A model generated the notes under the pieces. The model did no database searches and was not told the DNA's origin. It worked only from the letters and a program-made list of their open reading frames with translations. From Pegea sp. RAD2-039 (Eukaryota > Chordata > Thaliacea > Salpida > Salpidae): a stretch of 64,000 nt of DNA. Of the stretch, positions 41,601 to 60,230 are shown one piece after another; within the stretch, counting starts at the first letter, position 1; every line of letters starts with the position of its first letter. The stretch spans positions 1,240,001-1,304,000 of the forward strand of contig JAQGEQ010000354.1 in assembly GCA_034620365.1 (NCBI GenBank), read 5' to 3'. Both the position numbers and the translations under genes were made by a program.

Positions 41601-44600
41601 ACCTTCAGATAAAACATTCTCAACAATTACATCAACTTCAACAGATGTGACTGCTTCTGGTAAACTTTATTCAATTTAAGCATTTTGCTAATAATTTATA
41701 TTAATAAAATAATTAATTTTAGGAAACTATTAGATTAAATAAAATTCATATAAATACATTGAAGAGTTATTAAATTGATAAAGCTTAATTTGCAGTACTA
41801 AATGTAATCTAACCCCAAAATAAATTGCTTTCTTAGACGACTTTGAAGTGACAACTTTAATCACAAGTCCAACAGATAAAGGTTGAAGATGAAAACATTT
41901 TGATTTTTTTCTAATCATAATTTTCTTTCATAATTATTTGTAAGCCTGGGTACAAAAAAAAGGTACAAAGATCAAATTTGAATTATTTCGACTTTAATCT
42001 TTTTTTAGAAACTTGTGAAGAAGACTACACATGTGGTGAGTGTAATATTTGTGCAACTTTCCCTGAAACAGCAACAGGTTTTTCAAACATCTCATTAGAA
42101 TCATGTGAAAACGGTAAGATAATCACACAGCTGTGTTTAATATTTCCAAAAAGTGCTTTGTCATACCAGGAATTCCACTAGGAAAACGTCTTTGCCATAT
42201 CGATGGAACTTGGGCAAAACCAGTGATCATTTCTGGATGTGATAAAGATCTAGAAGTCATTAAAAGCCTTGAAACATCAGGATTTTTAAAAATTTATTAA
42301 TTATAGAGTTTGACTAAGTTACCTGTAGATGATTCTACACAAAAGGAATCAGTTGCAAAAGATCTTGTAATTCTTACTTCAAAAATAGGAGGATTATCAA
42401 ACAGTGAGATTGAAGATTCTCTAGATGTTATTGAAAATATTTTGTATAAAACTAACAATCTTGCAACTGATGTAAGCATTTTTAGCTGAAAAACGTTTTT
42501 TTTAATTGAATTTGGTGTTCTAGATATCCAGCTTGTTAGTGGAAACTGCTAGTAATTTGATCAATGCAGCTAAAGTTCAAAAAACAAACTCAAAAAGGTG
42601 AAACTACTAATTTATCAAAAATCATAAACAGATGAAAAATAATCTCTTTAACCTTATAATATTTATTTCTTAATTTTTAAACAAAATTATTCTTTTAAGA
42701 AAACTGCATTCATTTACTAAAGTATGTACAAAGTACTTTTAAAAATTTTTTTCAAAAGCTTAAAGAAAACTTGTTTTGTAGAATTCTCTCAACCATAGAA
42801 AATATTGGATCATCTGTTAGTGTAGATGAAGATGAAAGTTTTGAAACAACTTCATCAGAGCTTTCACTTACAGTTTACAAACCTATTCCAAATATAATCA
42901 AATACAGAAGTAAAAAAGGTGAGACTAAAAATAAACATTCATTTCGACAATCAAGTTTTGATAAACAAAACTAAATTTAATGCCAACTTCTAATGTTTAT
43001 TTCAATAAACTTGAATTGCTTATCATCTAAACAACTAAATTCTTTCTAATATCTAACCGTTGTCTACTAATACCTTTCTTTGCTTAGTTCAGCAGACAGC
43101 AGTAGGGTTAGAAGTTACAAACCTTTCAAACAATCTTCTAAACGGGTTCCGACAGAATCAAGTCACATTTCAACGTGATTTTCCAGAAAAACCAACTTAC
43201 ATTTGGTTAAATTACAGTAAACCACAAAAAGGCAATTTTGTTTATTCTGGTGTTAAATTGTCAATGAACAATTTATTCATAATCTGTTATTTTGTAATCT
43301 GTTATATGTTCTTAGTATTTGATAAATATTTTGGGTAAATAGTGCCGCTTTCTTCTGGAGAAAGTTATGGGATTGAATCCAGATAGAAAACCATCTGTTC
43401 GTTGACCTTGATATCACTGTTCTATATCACTGGGTGGTGCCACTATAGGTCGATAAAGTGGCAATATAATCTCCTCTATAATCAAACCCAATATATGATG
43501 GTAGTATCCAGCAAACACCTTTACCAGTCCAATAGTAATGGTGACGAAAGAAGACATCTGAAAGCCATTTTTCTGCTTATAAATGCTTGCAGTTTTTATA
43601 AATGTTTGTTTAAGTAGATAACTCAATTAATCTCTTATTATTAAATATTACAAGATTTGCTTGAAATTTATTTATTTGTCGTCTGATGCCTGAGTTATAT
43701 TTTCTTTAGAATCTAGAATCCAATTTCATGCTTTTTTTGATGATTCAATTTTTCAAGTCGATAATTTCAACCAAGACCACTCATCTGTAGGTCCTCAGAA
43801 CGTAAGCTCACAATTTGTGTTATCTGCAACATTAGTGGGAGCTAAAGTGAACTATGTTGAGATCAAACTTCAATTGAAAGTAAGTTATTAAAAGCAAAAT
43901 TGAATACAAGTTCATCAATCATCAGTATTTTCAGTTTCATTAATTCTAAGTAGAAATGTTTAATAAATATTTTTGATTATATCAAAATATATAGTAGTTA
44001 GTGGTATGTTTAGTCAATCATTTTTCTTACATGATTTTATAATTTTTATAGATTAGGGATGCAAATAATTCTAAATGTGCTTACTGGAATGAGACATCGT
44101 CATATTGGAGTACTTTAGGATCTAAGATTATCAGTTTTGATGATGAATATATTACTTGTTTCTTTCAACATCTGACTAACTTTGCATCATTATTTGTAAG
44201 AAATTGTTGAAATTGAATTTAAAATATTTATCAGAAGTATTTCAGGCTTCTTCTGAAAGCTCACAAAATCTTGTAGCTTTAAAATCGTTGGATATTATCA
44301 GTGTTGTTGGTTCTTGTGTTTCAATTATCGGACAAGTAGGAACTATAATCACATTTCACAAACACAGGTTTTCAAATTACTTTTGCTATTTAAAGATTAA
44401 AAACTTTCTATTTTCAATTGTCATCTAATTAATTGAAATTTTTTACAGAAAAATCTTGAACAAGTCAAACTTTAAAAGAGCCATATTTTTACTTAATTTA
44501 GCCATCTCTTTAATATTTTTAAATTTACTTATGGTTATAAGTAACATCTCATCAATAATCAGCAATATTGATATTTGCTTGGCCATTTCAATACTTACTC

Positions 44601-45888
44601 ATTTTTTTCTGATGTCGGTTTTTATGTGGATGGCTACTGATACATTTATTTTGTTTTTTTCTGTTGTTTTTGTAAGTATCGAATTTATAATTAAGATTCA
44701 AATACCAGAATTACATCGTTTAGTAGAATATTTTACTCCAATTAAATGGAAATAACTTTTCATATAGTAAACAGTTTTTAAATTTATCATTTTGATAAAG
44801 TTTTTTTTTCTTTATTTATTTATTTCAATAAATGCGAAGGAGCGTGTCTGAAGAGAGCACCTCTCGCTAACACACGTTCTCACAAAAAAATCTTTCTTTT
44901 ATGAGAGAAAAAATGTTAAAGTTATAAAATCTTATACAAAACAAAATTCAGGATCAATTCTGTATTTTAGAAATTTTAAAATAATTTCCACTGAAAAAAT
45001 ATAACCAAATTGTTTCTATAGAAAGAAAACTTTTAATTTTTTTACGTTTTTAATTAATTCATTTAAATAAAATAAAAACAAATAAATATTAAACTTTTTT
45101 AGCCATTCAAAGCTAGAGTTCGTTTAAATGGCAAATATTTCTCAGCGGGTTTGTTTGTAATAGCTTGGATAATTCCACTACTTCTAGTGATTATTCCAGT
45201 GTCATTGAACTTAGAGATTTACGGTGGAAGAGAGCACGAAGGTATCATTGAAGATGTGTAAGTTGTTCTAATCGATTCACTTAGTATCATTGAAACTATT
45301 TTTATTGGTTAGTTTGCCTATGTGTTGGATTAAAGATCAATGGATTGAATATCTTGTTATCATACCTTCAGCGATCATATTTTCTTTCAACTTAGTTGCA
45401 TTTTTCATAATCTTTTATATTGCAAAATGTAGATTTCATCCTGGAAGAGCTAGAAAAAAAGTAAACAACTTCTTTTGATCTTTTTTAGTAATGTCTAAGA
45501 TCTTTTCAAATCATTAAATCTTGTTAAAGATTAAAGAAGTTAAAAAGGTTTTAACTTCGAGCAAGCAATTTTGATCTAACAAAAATGTTTCTAACAGGAA
45601 GAAAACTGCTCTCTGCTTTCATTTGCTTTTATCTTATTTCTTTCTATTGGAGGTACTTGGAGTATTGGATTACTAATAACACCAGCAACTAATCTTTCTG
45701 ATCAGTTAGGATTGATTCTTTCTTACACCTTCACTATACTAAACGCTTTTCAAGGTAAGGAATTATTTGTTAAAGCCCAAAGCTACTTACTTTGGTTAAG
45801 GTGGAATTCTATTTCTTCTTTTTCTTCTTCGAGTCAACAATTTGAACTTGAACAAAAAGTTTGTGACAAAGTTGAAACCAACAGTTAA
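38643..45888 (+). CDS. Adhesion-type GPCR: Ser/Thr stalk, hormone-receptor motif, GAIN/GPS and seven-helix region
   Basis: Exons: 38643-38694, 39970-40026, 40092-40145, 40628-40693, 40913-40978, 41208-41237, 41390-41458, 41591-41659, 41837-41881, 42009-42113, 42170-42255, 42307-42471, 42524-42597, 42782-42918, 43088-43249, 43710-43879, 44052-44195, 44246-44367, 44449-44671, 45103-45257, 45313-45460, 45598-45888. Phases agree throughout. Order: signal peptide (MMKMFLLILFKLLLTDK), Ser/Thr-rich stalk from eight mini-exons, Cys-rich HRM (GKRLCHIDGTW), GAIN, GPS with CAYWN and cleavage-type HLTNFASLF, then helices 1-6 and the start of helix 7 (family-B2 text: LTHFFLMSVFMWM, YTFTILNAFQ). GPS cleavage at HL/T is known for the family. 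The 42255/42307 join (51-nt intron) and the end are uncertain: the last frame may read through a GTAAGG donor at 45755 to TAA at 45886, giving 829 residues, or splice to an unseen exon. Confidence 0.9.
39255..39489 (-). repeat. tRNA-Val-derived SINE in GPCR intron 1
   Basis: Reading the minus strand, 39489-39417 resembles tRNA-Val(AAC): TAGTATAGCAGTTATCACG matches the D-arm and A-box region, then an anticodon loop with AAC, then GGTTCGAG as the B box. The acceptor and T stems no longer pair, so it is a SINE head and not a working tRNA. A unique body follows (CAGTTCCGCTG, CTGCTGCTTGAGCAACAGC). The 3' part holds GTTCTCGGTCGAAGCAGACC, the module shared with repeats at 33.7 and 35.2 kb. Confidence 0.65.
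39580..39790 (+). repeat. Second tRNA-derived SINE-like repeat, inverted relative to its neighbour
   Basis: In plus orientation it has an A-box-like AGCTAAATGG near 39599 and a B-box-like AGTTGGAGTCC near 39648. Its later portion (CCGTTTGTTCCGCTG and GAGAGTAGAATCCTGCTGC) matches, in reverse, the body of the SINE at 39255-39489. The two therefore form a head-to-head inverted pair 90 bp apart inside GPCR intron 1. Divergence between them indicates separate or old insertions. Confidence 0.5.
43340..43620 (+). repeat. Probable tRNA-derived SINE-like insertion in a GPCR intron
   Basis: The intron at 43250-43709 contains a GC-richer block with a B-box-like GGGATTGAATCC at 43369-43380, preceded by a tRNA-anticodon-arm-like CTTTCTTCTGGAGAAAG, followed by GTTCGTTG also seen in the repeat at 39580-39790. 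The opposing small open frames over it are incidental. The edges are approximate and family membership is tentative. Confidence 0.4.
44810..44889 (-). mobile_element. CR1-like LINE 3' end (copy D), about 80 bp
   Basis: Only the last 80 bases of the LINE 3' UTR are present, including the terminal hairpin GAGAGCACCTCTC and the TTTATTTATTTATTTC tail. It was inserted antisense into the GPCR intron between exons 44449-44671 and 45103-45257. Confidence 0.8.
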
Positions 45889-48450
45889 AAAAACACGCCA
45901 GGCACTAGTACAGGAGACATCGTAAATAAAATTTTATTATTTATGAATCTTTAACTTTTTACAGAATCAACTGTTTAATTTCTAATTTTGATCTTTGTAT
46001 GATAATTATTATTTTATTTTAAAAATTCAATCTTTATTTATTTGTTTAAACAAGAACTCCTATTACTGATTATTATCAGAACAAATAACTTTATTGTATT
46101 TAAATAAAAGTTTTATCTGTTTTAAGATTTTCTTCTCCGGGAGAGAACTCAACAGTGGTAACAAACTGATAAATCAACTATGAAAACAAATTCTTTTCAA
46201 GGAGCTGTTTTGCATAAATTGTCATGACGTCAGACATACCTCTTGTCTTGTATGCTTATCGTGTTACTATTCTATTTGCTATCATTCTATCAGATAAAAA
46301 TTAGATGAATATCATATGTTGTAAATTCATTTATTTTCGAAAAAGTTGATTATTTTTTACCAAGGTTCTAACCTGGTGTATACAAACAAAAACAAAAGGC
46401 AAAGTAAGAAAAGTTCATGATTTTAGAATTTAATAAACTTTTTAATTACTTCTTTGATGAGAGATTAAGTTTTATTTCACATTAGCTTCAATCAAATCTT
46501 AAATTAAAACCTATTTTAGCTACATTCATAATTTAAACATTCAGTAAACAGATAAATAATTTGTTTCATAAGAGTAAATAAAAAAAAATTTAAGGATAAT
46601 GAAGCATATTCAAAACGAGGTCCTTCATGTAGTATTACTCAATAATTTTTTTAGAATTGATTTATAAAAGATAATATAATAAAATTGAATAATTAGATTT
46701 AAAACCATCTTAACATATTTATAAATAATTTTTTATATATTGAGCCACTTTAAAATATAATATATTTGCTAGTAAGATCTACTGATCCTAAATCATTTCA
46801 TGCATTCAAAATTTGAAAAGACGTTCTACACTAACAATAGAAATTGAAATGTGTTCTTTCATGTAGTGAAGTTAGTTAATAATAAACTTTTTAACTTATT
46901 CTTGTTTTTATCCAAAAATATGACCACTTTTATAAAATTAAATCTTAATATCAAATTGAATATTTGAAAGTTTTCAAACTAAACTTTTATTTACTTTATT
47001 AACATAGTACTGAGAGATACTAACAATAAATCTAAATTATCAACTGGAAATATGATATAAATGCTTTGTACCAGAACAAAAAGTAAGTTTTAGTTTTTAT
47101 TTCTAAACTTTTTAATGATCATGTTTTTATAAGGTTTCTGACCATAGCTGTTTTTACTACAACTTAATATTTTACAAGTTTGCTTTCAACTTATTATTTA
47201 AATAAACTGAAATTTGCCACCTCAATCTAGGCTATTAAACCAAAAATTAATCATTCTGTATATCTTGAGTTTTTAATTTCTTTTTAGAAAATTTAAAACT
47301 AATAGTAAACAAAATTATTTTTACTTAATTTGAAAACACAAGATTCATAAAATTATTTTTATTGTAAAAAATGAAATATATTTAAAAGGCAAACTATTAA
47401 AAAGTCTGATTTCTACTTATGAAGGCAGTTTGTGAATATTTGTGTAGAATAAGTTTAACTATTATGATAAAAGATTACCACGCCGCATAAGTAAATTTAA
47501 GGGAAGATTTTAGTCTTATGTAATCTTAGTGGATCCTTAACTACTTTTTAGCTTAGCTCAATTTATAAAAAAGCTTTCTTAAAGAGACCTACCATTTTAT
47601 CACTCGTTCTTACTACTAAAAGAATGTTAAAACTATATTTAGAAATAGTTTAAATCAAAGTTGTTCACCATTTTATATTTAGAAATAGTTTAAATCAAAG
47701 TTGTTCACCATTTTTAAGATTTCGAAGATAGTTCAGATGTTTTGCAGTAAAAAAGTCATAAAGTAATACTTATAACCAGTTATATAAACAAATAATATCC
47801 CAAGCACTCGAGTAAAGTAAATTTATTTCAATACTTTATGTTTATTATCAATAAAATTGCTTAGCTATTTTTTATTTTAAAGATCTATTGCATGAAGTAA
47901 ATATAAAAGTTACTTAAAAAACATTTTATTGCATATTCTATAAACACTTTCAGTTGATTATTTTCTGCAATTTAAAAAAATAATTTTATATAAGTTTTAA
48001 ATTATTCCTCTCTAAATATGCACCTCATGAAACTCGTTAAATACTAAACGACGGATTTATATGGATAGTTTTAAGATTTAATTTACTGGTAAAGGATTCA
48101 ACAACCTAAAGCTCTTCCTATTAAAACCTTACAGTATTTGTTTTCATTAAATTTTTTAAACTACTCAAATTGTATGCCAAGTAAAAAATATATAATTTTA
48201 TATTTTTTTGAGTATTTCTTAGTTGCTTTTTAAAATAATTGATTTAAATGTTTTTCTTTATTAGAAACTGTTTTGCAGCTTTAAAACTTTTTGAAAAATT
48301 GAACGAAATCAAAGTTTACAAATTATATAGATTATCTGCACTTTCCTAGCTTTTGTAAAATTTGTATTAGTATTAAAAAAAAACAATTTCAACTTCTTAC
48401 AAGTCACTTAATTTATTTTCATCATTAAATAATTTTCAATGAGTACGATC
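45889..48450. other. AT-rich intergenic region between convergent genes
   Basis: No supported exons. Features are a TGACGTCA at 46225-46232 and a perfect 40-bp tandem duplication at 47635-47714. If the GPCR has a further terminal exon completing helix 7 it should lie here, but I could not find a hydrophobic continuation behind a good acceptor. Confidence 0.45.
47635..47714. repeat. Perfect tandem duplication of a 40-bp unit
   Basis: Two identical 40-bp copies abut at 47635-47674 and 47675-47714, each starting ATATTTAGAAATAG and ending GTTCACCATTTT. The absence of any difference implies a recent duplication, or an assembly artefact. Confidence 0.9.
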
Positions 48451-50825
48451 TTAATGCTGTGTTGGAATATAAGATTTTGGTAAATGGCTCGGATCACTAA
48501 AGATACTGATTGAATTATAGAAGAACTTACAAGTTTGACTTCTTTGTTCCCAAGTCTCAGGCCAAACATGAATCTGTTTGATATTTGTCAATCTTTTAAG
48601 GAGCAAAAGATACATTTCAAGAGTCCCATCAAGCCACTCGCCTCGTTTTTCTTGAATAATACTTAAATGTTTGTGCGTTATTGGATCCTTATTCATATGC
48701 ATACAAGATTTGAGACCAACCTGTATTCTAAAATACAACAGATAATTAAAATTTGTGGTTAGAATTATAATATAATATTACCTTTTAGGCTCAATATATC
48801 TACTTAAGCTTATAACTGAGCGTAAGTTCTTATACATATGTCTTCCATTATATGTCATTGACATAGTTGAAAATACATCTACCTTAGTTTTACTGTAAAG
48901 ATTCCAATACTGTAAAAAAAAATATTGTTTTAAGGCATCATTACTTAGTTGGGGTACATCAAGTGCTGAAAATGCTAAGAACCAAATTATTTATGTTAAA
49001 ATAAAAGTAAAAAGTTATTTTTTTAATACTTGAACCTTTAATACTCCCCAATCTGATATGCAGAAACCAATTTTTAGGTTAAGCTTGTGAAGTTTGTTTG
49101 TCAATGAATTCAAGAATTTTCTAAAAATGATTTTTTCTGTTCATTTCTTTGGTTTAAGTTTTTATAGACATTTTAAAAACAAACTTTTCAAGAAATGTTT
49201 ACTTACCTATCATTATGATCAAAAATGAATAAAAATTAGTTTACAAGATTATTTTAAATGTAAATAAAATATCTAACACAACTCTTGTTGCATGTTCAAA
49301 AGTGTACTCCTTGTTAGGTTCGTAATCAATCATTATTCCATCCCAGCCGTCCATCTTTACTTGATCAGCTAATCTTTGAAGTACAATATCTCTGAAATAA
49401 TTTAGTTGTCATCAAATTTTCAGGGATCAAATCACTGTAACAACCTCTTAAATCCATCAAGAGCAAGTAGTTTTAGAGCACCATATTTAAGTTGCACATG
49501 TGGAATCATTTCTGGGTCTGATTCTGGAAAATAGTCTTTAATCATCTCATTTAGATCTGTTTTATTTTACAAAATCTTCTTAATTGAAACTTTTTTGGAT
49601 AAAATACAAACTTTTTGGGTATTATTTGAACATCTTTTTCTTCGTTTTCAGTGGTTACGTTTAACTTGTAAATGTTTGAAGATGGGTAAATCGTACCAAT
49701 ATTATTCAAAACTACAGAAGATCCAAACTTAAGAAGTTCTTTTTTTAGTTTCAATACTCCTGCTGGGTCAAGTTTTACCCAGAAACTAAACTCCTTTTTA
49801 TTATAAGGGTTGTAAGGAGTCGTTATAAAATCTGAAGCAATTGTTAACAGCAGTTAGTAGAAAGCAAAACAAAAATTTAATTAATGTACAAATATGAATG
49901 TTTATGAAAATATTTTAAATAGCTAATTAATCATTTCTAAAAAAATTTTAATTTTTTAAAAACATGATTGATTTATTTTAATTTTTTAATATTAGCTGGT
50001 ATATAGTTTTAAACAGAATTTTCCTAATAATTATTATGAATAAATTAAAAGTAATTCATGTTGGCAACATAATAATTTAAGATTGTCACTTGCGTTTACT
50101 GTTTGTACAATAAGCCCAATCAAACGTTTGGTTAATGATTGTTCTTTTATAAGTAAGCCCAAGCTTAGTTGAGGAACAAAAATCTTCATCAGATTTGATA
50201 CGTGCAACATGGGTATCAGCCAACCAACCATTTACACAGCTAAAAATCAATGATTGCATAATTACTTTTTCTTCAAAATTTATTATGGATGATAAAGTTA
50301 TTTTTCAATTTATTAAAACAGTTTACAAACAAACCTTTGAAAACCAAAATCAATTTCACGCTCTAAGTCACTTAGTAAAGCTAAAAATCTATTTCTTTCA
50401 GCGCATACAGATATAGCCTGTTCGTATGTACAGTTAGAACAACTTTTTAGTATAACTCCTGGAAATATTTGAAAATATTTTTGAAAAGTGATCATATTGA
50501 TTCATAGATTTTTTAAAGGATAATAGATACCACTGTGTGTTGAAGGTGTAGATATGTTTAAATTTACATGCTCTTTTAAAGGGAGACTTAATCCATTTCC
50601 AAGACCTAAACAAGTAAAATGAATTAATCAATGTTATTTTTTCAGGTCAAACAAAGTTTTCAAAAAAAAAAGTAAAAATTAGAATTGTTAATTATTATTA
50701 GAACTATTTCTTCTTAAACTAATTGGAAACTTGTTTATGAGCTTGTAATGTAATTGTTGTAAATAAATCAAATATTTTTATAAAACGTTATATTTACCTA
50801 AAATGAACAAAAGTAAAAATTTCAT
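48451..50825 (-). CDS. Secreted Link-domain protein fused to a GH18-like barrel
   Basis: Exons: 50825-50798, 50605-50531, 50458-50335, 50239-50100, 49831 to about 49560-49620 (end unresolved), 49556-49445, 49391-49278, 49120-49036, 48909-48782, 48727-48451. A signal peptide (MKFLLLFIL) leads to a Link domain, residues about 37-122, with the four conserved cysteines (C53, C77, C97, C120), TYEQAISVC, the hallmark CVNGWLAD and FDWAYC. Link modules bind hyaluronan in other animals. The C-terminal half reads as a TIM barrel: DGWDGIMIDYEP (GH18 strand 4 is DGxDxDxE), then LNLKIGFCISDW, VDVFSTMSMTYN (GH18 strand 6 MTYD-like) and IKQIHVWPETWE (strand 8 W-containing). GH18 membership is my inference. 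The fifth-to-sixth exon join does not fit phase with a strong site, so the two halves could be separate transcripts, although every other junction agrees. Outside the cell, a sugar-binding or glycosidase role is likely. Confidence 0.7.
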
Positions 50826-52821: not shown

Positions 52822-53510
52822 TTATTTATTTCGATAAATGCGAAGGAGGGTACCTGAAAAGAGCACCTCTCGCTGACACACATTCTCACAAATAACTACT
52901 ATTTGGCCAAAAATATAGAAAGTAAAAGATGTAACACATGGTATTTTGATATCACTCAAAGCATATAACAGTGAACAATTACATGGAATGTTAATAATAT
53001 AAGAAAGAGAAAAAAACCACAGTTTAGAAATGATAATATTGGAAATATCATAGCGGTTTAACTTCTGCTTGAACAACGCGAGTGACTTCGACATGGCAAT
53101 GTCTGATGGCAGCTGACTCCATGTATTAATTGTACGGTATGAGAAAAAACTTGCTCTGACCAATGTACTAGGTGATATAGGCTTATTAAGATGTAATGTG
53201 TGTCGCCTGCTTTAATATAACTTGAGGGAAGGACTAATAAAAAAGAAATCATCAAACTGAATGTCAATTAAGTTGTGGATAATTTAGAAAATAAGAATTA
53301 GGTCGTATTTAGTCCGTCGAGTTTCCAAAGTATCTAAATTGAAGAGACTGAGACGATGTTTATAACTATCATATTTAATGTTAAGTTTCCTACATACTAA
53401 TCTTATAAATGTGGCCTGAACAGACTCGATCTTTTTGATATCACTAACTTAATATGGAATCTATGCACTGACATTGTATTCAAGAATTGGACGTACGTAC
53501 AATTTGAATT
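52822..53510 (-). pseudogene. LINE reverse transcriptase C-terminus and 3' UTR
   Basis: Part of copy E. The translation shows the thumb and post-RT region in several broken frames, then an open frame with RASFFSYRTINTWSQLPSD and FKQKLNRYD. It is the same segment preserved in copies A, B and C and ends in the 3' UTR. Confidence 0.8.
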
Positions 53511-53518
53511 ACCACTAA

Positions 53519-54547
53519 CTAAATAGTATTGATGTCTTTGGAAGAGTTGAAAACAGAAATCCAGTCAACATCTGATAGAAACCTGTTAATGCCATTATAA
53601 TTTCCACAGTAAAAATTCCTTTTGCTTGAAGTTTTAGTGTTCATAGAAATAGTTTGGTGGAGCTTGAATTCAGTCATATTATGATCACATGTCAAAGCAA
53701 AAGGTTCTTTTTGATCAACGTAGATAATGTTCTCGGATTTTGATGTGATAAGAAGATCCAAAGTATTACCACTAACTTGGGTCGGAAGAGTAACCATCTG
53801 AGATAGATTATTGGCATTGAGGAAGCTTACAAAGGCATGACTTGGAAAGGGTGAATTAGTATTATCACTATCCAAGTTAAACGATTTTCCACTAAATGCT
53901 AAATTAGGGTTATTCCAATCAATTTTACTAAAATTAAAATCCCCCAAAATATATAACTCAGGACACACAACACTCTTCAGAGCTTTCAATAAGGCCTTAA
54001 CAGTAACCTCATCATTAGTTTTAGAGGGTGGTAGATAGGTACATATAAAACGAGAAAATTTGGACTTTGAGTAATGAAAATCAAAGGCGATAATCTCAAA
54101 CCCTGGAAAATTAATAGGATTGATCTGAATTCTAGATATCACGGGTGCAAGCGATGTTTTGTAAATTACGCAAACACCGCCGCCTCTATCATACAGTCTA
54201 TCACAATGCAAAACACAAAAAGGATTACCGTCAACCAGAAAATAATCAGGATAAAACGGTTTCAACCAAGTTTCACTAATAAAACCAAATGTGAAATCTT
54301 AGGAATGCAAAAGAGCTTTCAATTGAAGAATTTTGTTAATAATCGACCGTGCGTTGAAGAACATACATAATGTGATAGAAGAATTGTCTTTTTGATGCTT
54401 GTGAGATTTGATGATAGGCTTCTGTAAGTTGATATCTTGGGTATTAACAATTGTGTCCGGAGAGAGTTTAAAAAAAGAAGATGTGGGTTCAGTGATTATT
54501 TGCCACTTCCGTTTTTTGAAAAAACTTTGACAATTCTCAAGGCCCAT
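53519..54547 (-). pseudogene. LINE ORF2 N-terminus: APE-type endonuclease
   Basis: Within LINE copy E. Two stretches in one frame (54547-54299 and 54296-53519) are separated by a single TAA and together cover the start of ORF2 (FFNARSIINKI, then FISETWLKPF across the stop) through the endonuclease catalytic text GDFNFSKIDW and CDHN. The frame runs out where the RT core is missing, so no active enzyme is expected. Confidence 0.8.
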
Positions 54548-55490
54548 GGTGGACCTCGAACTTTATATTTGAAATCAGTTGGTTGTTCCTTCTCATTTCG
54601 GTTATACGCTTCTTTTAGAAGATGCTTATTTTGTAAGCGATCATCTTCACACATATCATGTGCTACTCTAATGCGCTCGAATTTTTTCTCAAGCCTTAGC
54701 TTATACAGCTTGGCAAGAAACTTGCGTTTGTTCCAATTTTCCTGAAAGGATACTTTCAGCGGTCTTTGATGATCTGAGCTTTTTGCTCCAAGTCTAGTCA
54801 TTGATACCTTTGGAACGTCCACAAAATCAAGGCTTTGAGAGCACATTTGATTAAAAAACTCACTGTCATCATCTTTATCAGTCTCAGAGACATTAAAGGT
54901 GATGACATTGTTTTCTCTATCCTCAGGGTCTACAGTGATTTTTTTGTGCGTGTCGGTGACCTTCTTGGCAAGAAGCTGCACCATAATAGCATTTTTGTCA
55001 GAACTGGGATCACCGACCACCGTGGCCCATGTGACTGGGTTCTTTGTAGAGGCATTAAGTTCGTCCATTGATTTGGACAAACTAGATACCTTCTCATCAA
55101 TCTTGGCAACATCTTTGGCAATTTCCGATTTTAGTTTTTCTAATTCAGCAGATACCGATTTGCTAATGTCTGATGATAGGTTTTCATCAGAATAGGTTGA
55201 GGGAGCTGTTGTATCCATGATTCTACATTTAATGCAAAACCATTTAAATCCCATTTGCTTCGTCTGGTTGTTATCAAATATATCGTACATTTTTTGCTCA
55301 CATCACTACAGGTGAGATGAAAGCAGGAGAGACATTTGAAGCATTCAATTACCGGATCTTCACCAGAGCAAATTTTATTGCAGGATTGGCAATTGCAATC
55401 TTGCTTTGATGAAGTCGGTTTTTCAGGATTTTTCTTTACAGTAGACCGTAAGGTCTTGCCACTTTTATGTGAATCCACCATAGTTTGCAT
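54496..55490 (-). pseudogene. LINE ORF1: PHD-type finger plus RRM-like nucleic-acid-binding domain
   Basis: Within LINE copy E. The frame opening at 55490 gives MQTMVDSHKS and a zinc finger (CQSCNKICS, CFKCLSCFHLTC), and the downstream frame (55290-54496) supplies the last pair (WFCIKC), a helical segment and the RRM-like and C-terminal domains (NVITFNVSE, MTRLGAK, RVAHDM). The two frames are offset by one frameshift at a run of A residues near 55285-55290. ORF1 proteins of CR1-group LINEs bind the element RNA. Confidence 0.75.
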
Positions 55491-55560
55491 AAAAGATGTT
55501 TACTGTCACCAATCACAGGATATATATACTATACAAATCACTTCCTATGGATAACTATAT

Positions 55561-59668: not shown

Positions 59669-60230
<562 letters not shown>

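Follow-up and report, generated by a model that had tools for sequence, protein, structure and literature searches.

In the thaliacean Pegea sp. RAD2-039, a Link module and a region resembling glycoside hydrolase family 18 (GH18) are encoded by one gene in our model, and the same arrangement recurs in two paralogs. The initial annotation had proposed this combination from a single locus; it is borne out by the gene model and by the paralogs. In all three gene models we observed the Link-barrel architecture, membership of the Link family, a conserved Glu and a D/N residue close to it. The window that we analysed is a stretch of 64,000 nucleotides (contig JAQGEQ010000354.1, positions 1,240,001 to 1,304,000) with a GC content of 20-33% in 4-kb steps, and the genome comprises 105.7 Mb in 387 contigs. 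Hereafter, the copy in the window is called W and its two paralogs on contig C71 are called A and B. The three gene models were spliced by hand and by eye from genomic DNA.

W lies on the minus strand and runs from an ATG at 50825 to the end of the stop codon at 48451, in agreement with the limits given initially. It consists of 10 exons, which are separated by GT-AG introns and joined in frame to encode 431 amino acids. Exon 1 (50798..50825), which was placed by its open reading frame and a GT donor, encodes the signal-peptide-like start MKFLLLFIL; it is small and is the least certain of the W exons. Exon 2 (50531..50605) encodes the linker before the Link module and ends in phase 1. The first half of the Link module with Cys 1 is encoded by exon 3 (50335..50458), which ends in phase 2 as in A and B, and the second half with CVNGWLAD and Cys 2-4 is encoded by exon 4 (50100..50239), which ends in phase 1. 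The barrel starts in exon 5 (49608..49831) with its N-terminal part and continues in exon 6 (49445..49545) with the MIPHVQLKYG region, which is strand 3 by inspection. Exon 7 (49278..49391) contains the DGIMIDYEP motif, exon 8 (49036..49120) contains GFCISDWG, and exon 9 (48782..48909) encodes VDVFSTMSMTYNG. Exon 10 (48451..48727) encodes IQVGLKS and IHVWPETW and then reaches the stop codon. By inspection of their starts, W and A look secreted, with a signal-peptide-like sequence, and B, whose start combines a cluster of basic residues with a long hydrophobic segment, looks membrane-anchored and type II-like.

Several other features were observed around W and elsewhere in the genome. About 2.7 kb upstream of W, the minus strand encodes a non-LTR retrotransposon endonuclease domain (53519-54298; PF14529, E=1.2e-10), and the neighbouring ORFs at 52822-53211 and 54496-55499 may be parts of the same retrotransposon. 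A unit of about 40 bp (tggtgaacaactttgatttaaactatttctaaatata) was seen by eye in two tandem copies at approximately 47635-47715. On the plus strand, the window contains a single-exon ARF-family GTPase gene (59673-60230, 251 bits) and a weak match to the secretin-family 7TM receptors (44429-44755, E=9e-5, 22.3 bits against a cut-off of 20.6). In the whole genome, 71 homeobox matches were found, of which 30 were cut out and 20 were read beyond the match. Among them, L042 and L044 (C235), L041 and L045 are presumably two posterior-type Hox genes 22 kb apart, with a Cdx and an Xlox in addition; these homeobox genes mark the animal as a bilaterian.

The Link module of W was confirmed together with its four cysteines and the CVNGWLAD motif. 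In the spliced W protein, Pfam Xlink spans residues 43-120 with 37.7 bits (E=2.4e-9; cut-off, 27 bits); a partial first assembly of the protein had scored 39.3 bits (E=7.7e-10). The other two family members also exceed this cut-off (46.3 and 59.4 bits). The four conserved Link cysteines are present in W, A, B and the Link gene on C15, and the matches of the Link part in the PDB are aggrecan, TSG-6, CD44 and LYVE-1. The family shares with the Link superfamily (PF00193), as represented by these four proteins, the profile match, the four cysteines and the GWLAD-like core, but it adds a glycosidase-like domain, and hyaluronan is only a putative ligand. To our knowledge, no vertebrate Link protein carries a glycosidase-like domain. 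The hyaluronan-contacting residues of TSG-6 were taken from the available text of PMC3937638, and five of them (H45, Y59, K63, Y78 and R81) were scored; K11 and Y12 fall outside the alignment. W keeps 0/5 of these contacts, A keeps 2/5 and B keeps 3/5, and in the same alignment aggrecan keeps 4/5 and CD44 and LYVE-1 both keep 0/5. Two further Link genes, L022 (C49, 4930-6464, minus strand) and L023 (C15, 4420-5982, plus strand), are similar to each other and encode a Link module with an F5/8 type C domain. With their exons roughly joined, they scored 56.4 and 58.2 bits for Xlink and 55.5 and 69.8 bits for F5_F8_type_C, respectively; this predicted combination is a second unusual Link architecture. 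Counting W, A and B, the genome contains at least five Link genes.

When the genome was searched with the barrel, the Link part and a paralog, contig C71 was the one further place found, beside a chance-level match on C18 (E=0.11), which was weak and isolated and was rejected. On C71 (locus L021), A (plus strand) and B (minus strand) lie tail to tail within about 6 kb. Because the genome search scored the best candidates only, a family size of three is a lower bound. In all three genes the Link module precedes the barrel, is flanked on both sides by phase-1 introns and is interrupted by a phase-2 intron. Phase-1 introns on either side of a module are a classical sign of exon shuffling. Three barrel exons have identical sizes in the three genes (114, 85 and 128 nt; exons 7, 8 and 9 of W), and exons of 223 and 132 nt are common to A and B; their counterparts in the W model, exons 5 and 6, are 224 and 101 nt. 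From the Link module onward, protein identity is 39.7% between W and A (146/368), 35.7% between W and B (136/381) and 38.4% between A and B (146/380). In every pair, third codon positions are the most divergent. None of the three genes has a premature stop, whereas 24-46 stops occur when the joined exons are read in the two other frames. Because the architecture and most of the intron phases and exon sizes are common to W, A and B, the fusion is older than the duplications and has since been kept.

Since the splicing was done by eye on genomic DNA alone, we considered whether the Link module and the barrel could be two adjacent genes that were mistakenly joined. The intron at the join, however, is present in the same phase in three genes at two loci and on both strands of C71 (268, 223 and 258 nt), and this reading is therefore very improbable. 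Thus, the proposal that the two halves belong to one gene is supported, since two paralogs agree with W in architecture and intron phases. W itself is a more delicate case, and the architecture is claimed most safely on A and B. We built a splice-site matrix from 24 introns of W, A and B, leaving out two doubtful W introns. Scores range from 3.6 to 11.4 for the 24 donors and from 1.2 to 9.5 for the 24 acceptors; these values are high by construction because the same sites built the matrix. The frame-keeping sites of W score below all of them: the donor at 50100, at the end of the Link module, scores -0.6, and the intron 49607-49546 has a donor of -0.6 and an acceptor of -0.7. An out-of-frame donor at 50090, ten bases on, scores 6.0. 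The W sites homologous to the intron of the paralogs, the donor 49612 and the acceptor 49556, score 5.7 and 1.9, and their use would also lose the frame. A frameshift near 49570, which W had first seemed to contain, is avoided in the frame-keeping splice model, though with these weak sites. The frame-keeping sites may be real, or there may be an assembly error or new damage to W. It is a serious possibility, although the lesser one, that the family is real but that W has recently been damaged or has shifted splicing and perhaps yields no full protein. Against this, the 431 codons are free of premature stops. Moreover, the columns shared by A and B and differing in W number 49, as compared with 52 shared by W and A only and 41 shared by W and B only. 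W thus has no excess of private changes, which indicates that it is not long dead. Damage to W would in any case be compatible with the explanation that we prefer for the family, which is given below.

The region C-terminal to the Link module comprises about 310 residues. By inspection, eight strand-like hydrophobic stretches follow in order (KEFSFWVKL, VVLNNIGTI, MIPHVQLKY, DGIMIDYE, KIGFCISDW, VDVFSTMSM, IQVGLKSC and IKQIHVWPE), and the region is likely to be a TIM barrel, that is, a (beta/alpha)8-type fold. A structure model of the last exon alone contained helices only and no strands (pLDDT 50). Pfam Glyco_hydro_18 gave no match at E<=10 in W, A or B, and no Pfam family was above its cut-off for the barrel in any of them. 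Glyco_hydro_85 matched A alone, below the cut-off (E=0.0041, 16.6 bits against 22.2), and was not among the matches listed for W or B. A profile of the three barrels was then compared with 177,635 PDB sequences and gave two matches at E<=10. The better one was the GH18 chitinase 6k7z (E=0.022), whose DGVDIDYE aligns on the family motif DG-x-M-x-[DN]-YE; the other, a VPS9 chain (E=1.4), was weak and isolated. Cytochrome c oxidase subunit chains and HROB, TbpB_C and HxpB were rejected as weak and isolated matches. Searches of Pfam, PDB and NCBIfam with single barrel sequences, and of NCBIfam and PHROGs with W, A and B, gave nothing of use.

Profile-profile comparison was performed with hhalign against very small sets, four GH18 sequences (three PDB stretches and the genome's own L027 protein) and three GH85 sequences. 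The sets are this small because a scan of genome_contigs for bacterial references, made with the L027 GH18, confirmed 0/14 stretches. The score was 33.6 over 90 columns for GH18 (probability 23.5%) and 30.2 over 49 columns for GH85 (probability 13.7%). The reversed profile gave 17.9 and 13.1, and in 300 column shuffles neither score was attained (best, 24.5 for GH18 and 24.6 for GH85), a null that does not represent other TIM barrels. The GH18 alignment sets VDVFSTMSMTYN against VDYLHVMTYD and so reaches the M-x-Y region of GH18. In the numbering of W, D248, G249 and E255 are invariant in the three proteins, and residue 253 is D, N and D. Of the GH18 motif DxxDxDxE, the first Asp and the Glu are kept in all three, the third position is D or N, and the central Asp is replaced by Met in all three. 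As compared with GH18 chitinases and di-N-acetylchitobiase, the family shares the D and D/N-x-E of the motif, M-x-Y in the hhalign alignment and, by inspection, a Trp in the last strand, but it differs in this Met and in the absence of a Pfam match. As compared with the GH85 ENGases, paralog A shares D-G-x-hydrophobic-x-N-x-E and the weak Pfam match, but the match is below the cut-off, and the Asn of the catalytic N-x-E is Asp in W and B, although the Glu is kept in all three. These comparisons weakly suggest that the barrel is distantly akin to GH18/GH85. Of the GH18-like barrel in the initial annotation, the distant kinship therefore stands, through the motif and the hhalign scores. A specific assignment to GH18 does not stand, since the Pfam match is missing, GH85 is similarly close and Met replaces the central Asp.

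We prefer the explanation that at least three extracellular proteins form a family, each with one Link module and a C-terminal (beta/alpha)8-type domain related to GH18/GH85. The Link module would anchor the protein on a GlcNAc-containing glycan of matrix, cuticle or mucus, and the barrel, acting by a retaining, substrate-assisted mechanism, would cut a GlcNAc bond. In this mechanism, the invariant Glu (W residue 255) would act as acid/base and the Asp/Asn two residues before it would stabilise the N-acetyl group. Secretion is predicted for W and A, and B would be tethered by its N-terminal membrane anchor. Both GH85 and GH18 rely on a D/N-x-E pair in this position for N-acetyl-assisted catalysis. 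Fold, catalysis, substrate and topology are all predicted from sequence here, and we rate the chance of a Link-targeted hydrolase of a GlcNAc glycan as about even. The second domain could instead be a TIM barrel of a different kind, or a different alpha/beta fold, that is unrelated to GH18/GH85, with the motif arising by convergence or chance; individually the matches are weak (E 0.004-0.022), and they centre on one motif. However, at the same residues two libraries, PDB and Pfam, point to glycosidase families that are related, and the hhalign scores exceed all 300 shuffles for both families and extend to the M-x-Y region. We consider an unrelated fold improbable. The main rival is a binding-only protein, in which the barrel, like that of chitinase-like lectins, has lost its activity and glycan is bound by both halves in a structural or sensing role. 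The Met at the central motif position in all three proteins, the Asn at residue 253 in A and the absence of a curated GH family above cut-off speak for it. On the other hand, chitinase-like lectins usually lose the catalytic Glu, which is invariant here, and GH85 tolerates a hydrophobic residue at the position of the Met, since the genome's own ENGase reads DGWFINIE. A purely binding role is thus somewhat unlikely. Because the D/N-x-E is kept and the Met departs from GH18 but is GH85-like, an active GlcNAc-directed hydrolase is favoured, and the barrel is likely to be enzymatic.

The genome encodes other proteins related to such glycans. The GH85 (ENGase) gene on C42 and the GH18 gene L027, which we take to be chitobiase-like, are separate from the W/A/B family, and GH18 matches were found on C19, C3 and C78. 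A GH56 (hyaluronidase-family) gene lies in one open frame on the minus strand of C293 (G000:C293:512093-513058; E=2.7e-100, 6-333 of 335). Hyaluronan synthases are expected within Glyco_trans_2_3, and a search of the genome with this family gave two places on C14. The better one (L075; G000:C14:72156-72689), which was read in part, is a GT2 glycosyltransferase exon with TPQFF, TEDTLLSLRL and QRSRWCKGN; it is presumably cellulose-synthase-like, and its gain by horizontal transfer is possible.

Outside chordates, Pfam Xlink is described as rare in the available text of a 2025 survey (PMC12383584): seven anthozoan species, some bivalves, one tardigrade, one annelid and one arthropod are named, bacterial, viral and archaeal matches are also mentioned, and sea urchin is present in the survey tree. 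According to the same text, the mussel XLINKs carry Link alone at the C terminus, one of them with C1q. XLINK1/2, which are non-chordate Link proteins, resemble the present family in having secreted and membrane-bound forms, but the family here has a barrel after Link. The term 'link domain' occurs 0 times in the available text of a rotifer lectin survey (PMC8878817). We found no Link protein with a glycosidase-like domain among the matches listed, in titles and abstract starts, for Link with glycoside hydrolases, chitinase, chitobiase, hyaluronidase and invertebrate groups. To this extent the architecture appears new, as initially suggested, although this covers the literature and unnamed UniProt or InterPro entries with the same architecture may exist. 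Scans with two short peptide patterns each confirmed no relatives in viral_contigs (two scans, 23 pattern stretches each) or in genome_contigs (30 stretches).

Link modules have been studied mainly as vertebrate hyaluronan binders. The present family is a test case for what Link modules bind outside vertebrates and for whether a Link module can target an enzyme. We propose only tentatively, as a rather doubtful prospect, that the barrel constitutes a new family of glycoside hydrolases with ties to GH18/GH85 and that these proteins are the first known Link-guided enzymes on a matrix glycan. If this is true, the family would define an unclassified GH18/GH85-like group and would represent a matrix-remodelling system whose Link protein cuts its glycan instead of only binding it.
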